DNA of 64,000 bases from an uncultured Halobacteriovorax sp. (lineage in GTDB: Bacteria > Bdellovibrionota > Bacteriovoracia > Bacteriovoracales > Bacteriovoracaceae): assembly GCA_913061265.1 (NCBI GenBank), contig CAJXVS010000007.1, positions 1 to 64,000 on the forward strand. Reading direction: 5' to 3'. Both the position numbers and the translations under genes were made by a program. Position 1 is the stretch's first letter. Every line of letters begins with the position of its first letter. The notes under the pieces were generated by a model. That model was not told where the DNA came from. It did no database searches and worked only from the letters and a program-made list of their open reading frames with translations. This document shows positions 31,806-34,310 of this stretch, piece by piece.

Positions 31806-32190
31806 ATGGCTAAGAAAAAAGCTGCTAAGAAAAAAGCAACAAAGAAAAAAGCAACTAAGAAAGTTGCAAAGAAAGCAACAAAGAAAAAAGTAGCTAAGAA
31901 AAAAGTAGCTAAGAAAGCTACAAAGAAAAAAGCTACTAAGAAAAAAGCCACTAAGAAAAAGGCTAAGAAAAAAGTAGCAAAGAAAAAGGCTAAGAAAAAA
32001 GTAGCTAAGAAGAAAGCTACTAAGAAAAAAGCCAAGAAGAAAGCTAAGAAGAAAGTAGCAAAGAAGAAAACAACAAAGAAAAAAGCTACTAAGAAGAAAG
32101 CTACAAAGAAAAAAGCAAAGAAAAAAGTAGCTAAGAAAAAAGCTACGAAGAAAAAAGCTACTAAGAAGAAAGCTGCTCCTAAGAAAAAGA
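31806..32190 (+). repeat. Low-complexity A/G-rich coding repeat
   Basis: Irregular units of 9-15 bp (AAGAAAAAAGC-type) encode the Lys/Ala run. The plus strand is almost free of C except in GCT/GCA/ACT/ACA codons. Confidence 0.8.
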
Positions 32191-32195
32191 AGTAA
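31806..32195 (+). CDS. Lysine/alanine-rich histone H1-like protein
   Basis: The protein has 129 residues built from only six amino acids (Met, Ala, Lys, Thr, Val, Pro) in overlapping KKKAT, KKVAK and KKKAK units. This is the H1-like C-terminal-tail composition seen in bacterial nucleoid proteins such as the Hc1/AlgP type, with no globular domain. It probably binds DNA without sequence specificity and helps compact the nucleoid, as could suit a small dormant or attack-phase cell. A strong CGGAGG ribosome site stands 6 nt before the ATG. A terminator follows directly. The coding DNA is itself a low-complexity A/G-rich repeat. Confidence 0.85.
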   Translation: MAKKKAAKKKATKKKATKKVAKKATKKKVAKKKVAKKATKKKATKKKATKKKAKKKVAKKKAKKKVAKKKATKKKAKKKAKKKVAKKKTTKKKATKKKATKKKAKKKVAKKKATKKKATKKKAAPKKKK

Positions 32196-32230
32196 TCTTT
32201 CTTTAAAGTCTTAAAGAATTTTTCTCCAAA

Positions 32231-32257
32231 AAGGCTCCGCAAGGAGCCTTTTTTTTT
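32231..32257 (+). terminator. Rho-independent terminator of the H1-like gene
   Basis: An 8-bp stem AAGGCTCC / GGAGCCTT with a GCAA tetraloop (32231-32250) is followed by nine T in total. Confidence 0.93.
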
Positions 32258-32305
32258 GGAGGAAGCATTTAGCAGGATGCTAAATGAATCCGAGCAACGC
32301 AGAGT

Positions 32306-32359
32306 AGGCCAGGATGGCCGGATCAGTGACCGACTTTTTTAATTAACCACTTTATTTAT
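32306..32359 (+). repeat. 54-bp direct repeat, copy 1
   Basis: It matches 32410-32463 at about 50 of 54 positions, offset 104 bp. Each copy has the GGCC hairpin, then GGATCAGTGACC, a run of T, and ACCACTTTATTTAT. Confidence 0.8.
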
Positions 32360-32409
32360 CCAGAATTCGCAGGAGCCGAGAGCGGGCGATCTTCGCAAAC
32401 TAGAAAACC

Positions 32410-32463
32410 AGGCCAGAATGGCCGGATCAGTGACCAACCTTTTTAATAAACCACTTTATTTAT
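32410..32463 (+). repeat. 54-bp direct repeat, copy 2
   Basis: Second copy of the repeat at 32306-32359. The hairpin loop is GAA instead of GGA, and the T run is five rather than six. Confidence 0.8.
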
Positions 32464-32514
32464 TTAGATAATCAGGATGATTTCTCCTGCAAGCCCCCAG
32501 GAGACTAAACAAAA

Positions 32515-32828
32515 TCAATCGACCCATTCTCTACGAGCCTCTCAGTTCAATTTCCATGTCAAAAAACTCAAAAACCTCAGCCCAATACCTCTCAAAAATA
32601 CCCATTTTTTCAAGAAAAATCAATAACTTAGACCCTGTTTACCAGGCGACCCTTCGCATTTTCCGCGATTTAAAGCACTCTAGGCTTTTGAGCGACATAG
32701 CTAATCTATAAGGCCCCTAAAAAAAAACAGCACAGAGGCTTATTTACAGTACTTAATCATATTGGTAGGTTATCGCACCTTTTAAAGACATCGCCAGATT
32801 TAAAAACTGGAGCGATGGGAGAATTATT
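32515..32828. other. Non-coding leader region before miaB
   Basis: No open frame of note is seen. About 32511-32640 is very poor in G on the plus strand (roughly 9 G in 130 bases). The remainder is the miaB leader, with a hairpin at 32789-32817. Confidence 0.5.
32789..32817 (+). promoter_or_regulatory. Hairpin directly before the miaB ribosome site
   Basis: Stem CATCGC / GCGATG (6 bp) plus inner CAG / CTG with a 2-nt bulge and a 9-nt A-rich loop. The last base of the stem touches the GGGAG ribosome site of miaB, so it could affect initiation. Confidence 0.4.
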
Positions 32829-34310
32829 ATGTCGACAGGCCTTGGGGTTCGAAACCCAGAAGTTCCAAAAGAACAAAGTTCAATTAATCCTATTACCGGA
32901 CAAAAAGTAGTTAAGATGGGAGACCTTGAGTTTCCTCCTAGAAAAGTTTGGATGAAAACTTTTGGCTGCCAGATGAATTACCATGATTCGGAAAGAATCC
33001 TCTCACATCTAACAGATCTTAATTTCACAAAAGCTTCTAGTGTTGATGAAGCGGATATGGTTCTTTTTAATACCTGTGCTATTAGAGATCTTTCCAACAA
33101 TAAATTCTATTCACAGCTTGGTGAGATGAAGCATGCTAAGGCCAAGAAGGAAGATCTTGTTGTTGGTATTGGTGGCTGCGTTGCTCAGACTGAAGGGAAA
33201 GAGTTAGTTAAGAAATATAAGCACCTCGATTTTGCTTTCGGTACAGATGTTATCGATCAGATCAACGATATGGTTTTTAGAACTTATTCAGGTGATAACA
33301 AGTTCACGATCAACTCATGGGACCGTAGCGAGAACTTTAGTATAGAAACTAAGATCACGCATGGATCTCCTCAAGCTTTTGTAAATATCATCAAAGGCTG
33401 TAACAAATATTGCACCTACTGCATCGTTCCTTATACAAGAGGAAAAGAGAGAAGCCGCAAAAAAGCTGAGGTAGTTGAAGATGTGAGAAAGCTTGTTGAG
33501 TATCAAGGTATTCAAGAAGTCACTCTGCTTGGTCAGAACGTAAATAGCTATGGTCATGATAATGGAGAGACACTTTCAGAACTTATCATGGAGCTTGATC
33601 AGATTAATGGTTTAGAGATGATCCGTTATACGACTTCCCATCCTTATGATGTAAGTGATGAGTTAGTTCAGGTTCACGGCAGTGCTAAGAAGCTATCAAA
33701 TCATTTACACCTTCCTGTTCAGTCAGGTTCTGATGAAGTTCTAAAAAGAATGCATAGAGAGTACTCAATTGAGCACTACCTTGGACTTCTCGCAAAACTT
33801 AGAAAATCAAACCCAGAGATCGTTCTCTCAACTGATATCATCGCTGGATTTGTTAACGAGACTGACGAAGAACATAAAATGACTTTGGACTTCTTAGAAG
33901 AAGCTAAATATGACTTTATTTATTCTTATGCTTATTCCATGAGAAATAATACGAGAGCTTCAAAGATGGTGGATCTCCTCACTGATGATATCCGTGGCGA
34001 GAGGCTTCGCGAGATTCAAAAGCATCAACTAGGCATTCAAGCAAAGCTTCGTGAGAAGATGATTGGTAATAGCTACCGCATCTTAGTTGAAGGTTATGGA
34101 AACATGGGCGGCATCAAGAAGTGGAAGGGAAGGACTAATTGTAATCGTATTGTTCATTTCCTACCTGAAAATGATGAGCAGGACTTAACTTGGAACTGGG
34201 TAGATGCGAAGGTAACTTCGGCTACGGCCCTTTCTTGCCAAGGGGAAATGCTGAACAACTATGGTCGGAGATTGCCGGCACATAGCGAACGCGCACCTGG
34301 AATCAAGTAA
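32829..34310 (+). CDS. miaB: tRNA-2-methylthio-N6-dimethylallyladenosine synthase MiaB
   Basis: The protein has 493 residues. The N-terminal UPF0004 domain has the auxiliary 4Fe-4S cysteines C47 (TFGCQMN), C83 (NTCAIRD) and C117 (GGCVAQ). The radical-SAM motif C191-x3-C195-x2-C198 lies in GCNKYCTYCIVPYTRG, and a TRAM-like segment follows near the end. The enzyme adds a methylthio group to i6A37 of tRNAs reading UNN codons. Length is slightly greater than usual because of about 35 extra N-terminal residues before VWMKTFGCQMN. The ATG at 32829 has GGGAGA upstream. Confidence 0.95.
   Translation: MSTGLGVRNPEVPKEQSSINPITGQKVVKMGDLEFPPRKVWMKTFGCQMNYHDSERILSHLTDLNFTKASSVDEADMVLFNTCAIRDLSNNKFYSQLGEMKHAKAKKEDLVVGIGGCVAQTEGKELVKKYKHLDFAFGTDVIDQINDMVFRTYSGDNKFTINSWDRSENFSIETKITHGSPQAFVNIIKGCNKYCTYCIVPYTRGKERSRKKAEVVEDVRKLVEYQGIQEVTLLGQNVNSYGHDNGETLSELIMELDQINGLEMIRYTTSHPYDVSDELVQVHGSAKKLSNHLHLPVQSGSDEVLKRMHREYSIEHYLGLLAKLRKSNPEIVLSTDIIAGFVNETDEEHKMTLDFLEEAKYDFIYSYAYSMRNNTRASKMVDLLTDDIRGERLREIQKHQLGIQAKLREKMIGNSYRILVEGYGNMGGIKKWKGRTNCNRIVHFLPENDEQDLTWNWVDAKVTSATALSCQGEMLNNYGRRLPAHSERAPGIK

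Follow-up and report, generated by a model that had tools for sequence, protein, structure and literature searches.

The locus and its hairpin array

The window, which is the whole stretch of 64,000 nucleotides analyzed in this study, contains a gene for a lysine-rich histone-H1-like protein of 129 aa (31806..32195, + strand), for which no Pfam match was found. The gene is followed on the same strand by an intrinsic terminator (32228..32257), which comprises an 11-bp stem (32228-32238 paired with 32243-32253) and a T9 run (32249-32257), and the H1-like gene terminator placed upstream of the array in the preliminary description is real. Downstream of the array, a MiaB-like radical-SAM protein is encoded on the + strand (32829..34310; Pfam UPF0004 and Radical_SAM). 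The loci closest to the window were from Halobacteriovorax and Bacteriovoracaceae MAGs (MiaB 90%). In two of these, L006 and L037, the MiaB-like protein was 90% identical and the gene order at the H1-like gene was the same. In L006 and L037, conservation of the segment upstream of the MiaB-like gene (32616-32828) was about 75%. This segment terminates in a hairpin adjoining a Shine-Dalgarno-like GGGAG and may be a regulated leader.

Four perfect hairpins with 3-nt loops (three GGA and one GAA) were found on the + strand within 217 nt, all at the layout originally described. They are located at 32266-32286 (stem of 9, GGA loop), 32307-32319 (stem of 5, GGA loop), 32411-32423 (stem of 5, GAA loop), and 32470-32482 (AATCAGGATGATT, stem of 5, the last GGA loop). 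The last of these shows a weak likeness to hairpin 1 of the type A elements described below. The CAGGATG core, reported earlier for three hairpins, was confirmed and is common to all three GGA hairpins. Among 5000 dinucleotide-preserving shuffles of the array region, none contained three GGA triloops on stems of 5 or more. When the whole 64-kb window was shuffled 200 times, the best 240-nt span contained a maximum of two (once), compared with the three observed. The array also carries a direct repeat of 54 nt (92.6% identity, 104 nt apart, both copies on the + strand). Copy 1 (32306..32359) corresponds to the latter half of a type B unit with an AT-rich tail, and copy 2 (32410..32463) contains the GAA-loop hairpin.

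The first ~80 nt of the array constitute a unit, termed type B, that was present in four genomes. On the + strand of the window, it consists of hairpin 1 (32261..32291; GGA loop, core at 32266-32286), which has an orthologous unit in G012:C79 (L256), G092, and G011, and hairpin 2 (32298..32328; GGA loop, core at 32307-32319), whose 3' end is the conserved ATCAGTGA; both hairpins exhibited covariation. A degenerate type A element follows on the + strand (32337..32391), in which hairpin 1 is deleted and the hairpin 2 core GCAGGAGCCGAGAGCGG is retained at 32369-32385. It scored 10.2 bits to the type A model R2 with filters off, and its exact pattern is common to intact type A copies. The region 32463-32506 was likewise a weak type A match (R2, 12.1 bits, filters off). 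At normal thresholds, the type A models R1 and R2 did not retrieve the array. The Rfam search of the window and the plasmid search using the array as a query retrieved no match. Taken together, the array may well be a composite of a type B unit, a truncated type A element, a duplicated half of type B, and an extra GGA hairpin.

The orthologous site was occupied by a canonical type A element in the sister genome G002, and the array was lost in the sister L037, leaving a remnant; the array is not conserved in place among the sisters. This, together with the sequence preceding the array, bears on whether 32258-32514 is transcribed from its own promoter as a dedicated CsrA-sequestering RNA. Such an RNA would account for three CsrB-type hairpins occurring far beyond chance in a genome that encodes csrA, and the 84-nt type B unit of the window folded better than 200 of 200 shuffles (z -3.3). 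However, the array begins only 9 nt past the T run, and the promoter scan of the sequence, which gave three sites in 2 kb versus 3.9 expected, detected no promoter-like site from the terminator to the array. With the array also absent in place from the sisters, with the GGA loops lost from the type B relatives, and with a separate small RNA in the same genome showing all the expected features (see below), we consider a dedicated RNA at this site highly improbable.

Type A and type B elements in Bacteriovoracaceae

The type B layout in G012 comprises TTTTTTTTTGGAGG, CATTTA.CAGGATG.TAAATGA, CCGA.CAACGCAGA, CCAGGATGG, and ATCAGTGA, and the layout was as in the window in G012, in G011, and in five copies in G092. 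The type B stems covaried, with seven pairs altered on both sides, a value matched by 1 of 500 shuffles, and the folding of the G012 unit reached a z of -7.2. The loops were not retained as GGA: they are ACGA/ACGA in G011, and the second loop is ATGAA in G092, with the stems retained in both. The preliminary description had named exactly such a loss of the loops but not of the stems as evidence against a CsrA-sequestering RNA. Given the loss of GGA in the type B relatives, the copy in the window is probably weak or a relic. Two further hairpins, GCGCC-NGAAGGA-GGCGC with GGA in the loop, were observed behind the type B unit of G012 (L256, about 450-530).

Type A elements were found by searching the relatives for GCAGGAGCCGAGAGCGG, and a covariance model was then built from seven copies. 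Their layout consists of TTTTTAT, a hairpin NNNCA-GGA-TGNNN, a GTATG linker, and a 6-bp stem enclosing the hairpin GGC-AGGA-GCC, and the two GGA loops are about 27 nt apart. The covariance-model search located type A in 51 of 129 Bacteriovoracaceae genomes with up to 25 copies per genome, the counts for the source genome of the window (G000) being from model searches only, and in none of 369 genomes of the phylum outside Bacteriovoracaceae at E <= 1e-4. Two of the G000 copies (L231; G000:C9:157919 and 161245), which are 3.3 kb apart, have a common upstream GAGATACTCCGCG in place of a terminator.

In the alignment of 89 type A copies, which was fitted to the model, both sides were altered in 12 of 14 pairs and 95.9% of the cells were paired; none of 500 shuffles reached the observed values. 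Template-switch correction of short palindromes can mimic covariation without selection on RNA. Neither this correction nor model fitting explains the constancy of the type A loops, as the first loop was GGA in 85 of the 89 copies and the second loop likewise in 85, and the stem columns varied freely. Stems that drift freely around a constant GGA in both loops suggest that a protein recognizes the loops. Some copies have CGA as the first loop, among them the ones that follow the small RNA in G045 and G049. In the relatives, where a covariance search had been suggested earlier, the stems of both type A and type B covaried, and the array appears to be assembled from dispersed repeats, with the type B GGA loops lost.

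The 5' side of type A adjoined a perfect terminator stem in 59 of 89 copies, compared with one of 89 for the shuffled upstream sequence and one of 89 on the 3' side. Both element families, type A and type B, recurred directly behind unrelated intrinsic terminators, in the terminator orientation, in other Bacteriovoracaceae. The upstream gene was mostly on the same strand as the element (56:17), and the strand of the downstream gene was random (36:35), which rules out a 5'-leader or riboswitch role for type A. The copies were more similar within than between genomes, with unrelated flanks, and tandem copies occurred. The within-genome likeness, the tandem copies, and the strand bias therefore indicate that type A is a spreading element, linked to the transcript upstream of it rather than to the gene downstream.

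The position and orientation of the elements relative to the terminators could also suit a 3'-end or insulation element, which would block read-through, stabilize 3' ends, or serve as an RNase or Rho landmark, with a loop reader other than CsrA. We consider this improbable, because it alone would not require GGA in both loops at 95% and most terminators have no element.

Alternatively, the elements could be mobile REP-like or MITE-like DNA repeats that insert behind terminators and whose loops are recombinase or transposase signals, with no RNA function. We regard this as possible, although doubtful. The elements are dispersed, tandemly duplicated, and restricted to the family, they show intragenomic similarity with unrelated flanks, and the array was lost in the sister L037. 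In addition, one copy of the source genome (L259, G000:C3:93272) sits between two tRNA 3'-end-like stretches (GTGTTCAAGTCACCGATGTCCCACCATTTT), as if a tRNA gene had been the site of integration or duplication. However, the Y1/REP-type transposase (PF01797) was found in 35 of 51 genomes carrying the element versus 51 of 78 lacking it, and two high-copy genomes, G135 (16 copies) and G012 (11 copies), had no PF01797 match. Moreover, the small RNA and two element families unrelated to each other have loops that converge on the CsrB motif. Identity with REP/RAYT was rejected, since type A is dispersed, palindromic, and extragenic but lacks the Y1 transposase association. G028, which belongs to a different family of the phylum, has 101 pairs of CAGGATGACG-type repeats, in CTTCGCTCAGGATGACG arrays, on many contigs (e.g., L105); these high-copy, dispersed repeats are apparently unrelated to type A and type B.

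CsrA, FliW, and a separate candidate small RNA

The genome of the window was searched for csrA and fliW. As the preliminary description had proposed to check, csrA is present: a single canonical gene of 76 aa (91 bits to PF02599) in the order flagellin-N protein, csrA, and fliW. CsrA is a known reader of the GGA loop motif. CsrB presents its repeat, CAGGA(U/A/C)G, in loops, and two sites separated by 10-63 nt can be bridged by a single CsrA dimer (PMC7652899).

Using the pattern CAGGATG-N-CAGGATG, which matched at G000:C12:18467, we found a candidate small RNA of about 85 nt (L261/L277) outside the window in the same genome, at G000:C12:18453-18537. It has a TATAAT box, the hairpins GAACA-GGA-TGTTC and GGCA-GGA-TGCC, and a terminator with the loop TTTGCAGG. 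Its model matched 117 of 129 Bacteriovoracaceae genomes at E <= 0.001 and 108 of 129 at E <= 1e-8. GGA was present in both loops of all 30 aligned copies, and covariation was present. The 30 copies have in common the -10 box and an upstream box near GTGGAAAACTTTACC. This box, which lies about 45-60 nt upstream of the RNA start, is possibly an activator site. The same small gene was located divergently upstream in 25 of the 30 loci, and in three genomes (G045, G049, and G136), the terminator of this small RNA has a type A element directly 3' of it. Outside Bacteriovoracaceae, seven weak matches to the small-RNA model were fetched and proved to be terminator look-alikes, with no GGA hairpins in the six that were aligned. 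The small RNA belonged to no Rfam family at the gathering threshold; its homologue L293 matched PrrB_RsmZ, the nearest sponge family, at 24.9 bits (E 0.04), which is below gathering.

Judged by these sequence features, the small RNA on C12 appears to be a much better CsrB/RsmZ-like candidate than the window array, and it is more likely than the array to be the dedicated CsrA antagonist RNA of Bacteriovoracaceae. The literature describes FliW and sponge RNA as mutually exclusive CsrA antagonists (PMC7366521). The presence of fliW together with a sponge-type RNA would, should the RNA turn out to bind CsrA, contradict this exclusivity.

From the observed sequence, structure, position, and distribution of the elements, we infer that type A and type B may act as RNA, being transcribed by polymerase read-through of the upstream terminator, and that the paired GGA loops of type A may bind CsrA, their spacing falling within the 10-63 nt reach of the dimer. 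In that case, the type A copies would serve as auxiliary CsrA sites at scattered loci, because their sequence has the CsrB motif and spacing and RrB offers a precedent for read-through. The window array is plausibly a partly decayed copy of such dispersed, structured post-terminator hairpin elements and not a dedicated CsrB-type gene; read-through into it would be low, as a strong terminator precedes it. A composite post-terminator element, with a CsrA-site role for type A, is our best overall explanation, which we hold with moderate confidence.

If CsrA does bind, many loci could titrate it through their read-through RNA, rather than one small RNA alone. Such distributed titration, by dozens of co-opted post-terminator GGA elements and a dedicated RsmZ-like small RNA in genomes that also have FliW, is proposed tentatively. 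Bacteriovoracaceae include predatory genera, in which a CsrA switch could bear on the lifestyle change.

Comparison with known systems

We found no paper on these hairpin elements or on Bacteriovorax small RNAs in the literature, and Rfam searches of the window, type A, type B, and small-RNA loci at gathering and relaxed thresholds yielded no convincing family. The TwoAYGGAY motif has two hairpins with GGA-type loops, as do the Bacteriovoracaceae elements. It is a known Rfam RNA motif (Weinberg 2010, PMC2864571), and none of these loci matched it at any listed threshold.

Like REP/BIME and comparable dispersed extragenic hairpins, the Bacteriovoracaceae elements are short, palindromic, multi-copy, and intergenic, and form tandem arrays; unlike REP/BIME, they have a fixed orientation behind terminators and conserved GGA loops, with no link to a Y1 transposase. 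In E. coli, RrA, RrB, and RrF are CsrA-binding RNAs with GGA loops that lie behind rRNA operon terminators and are reached by terminator read-through (PMC8144298). These are three near-identical copies in rRNA operons, each between two terminators (PMC8144298), whereas the Bacteriovoracaceae elements are many diverged copies behind unrelated genes, with a second terminator not defined.

The window array is similar to CsrB/CsrC and RsmX/Y/Z of Gammaproteobacteria in its repeated CAGGA(U/A/C)G hairpin loops (PMC7652899) and in the csrA of its genome. The sponge-like layout originally proposed for it therefore stands with respect to the GGA hairpins, the CsrB loop motif, and csrA, but not with respect to an own promoter, in-place conservation, or the GGA loops of type B. 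In contrast to CsrB/RsmZ, the array is built of dispersed repeats, has no Rfam match, and is not conserved in place, and no promoter of its own was found. The small RNA on C12 resembles CsrB/RsmZ in having a promoter, two GGA hairpins, and a terminator, and differs from them in that it is shorter and its host genome also has FliW.
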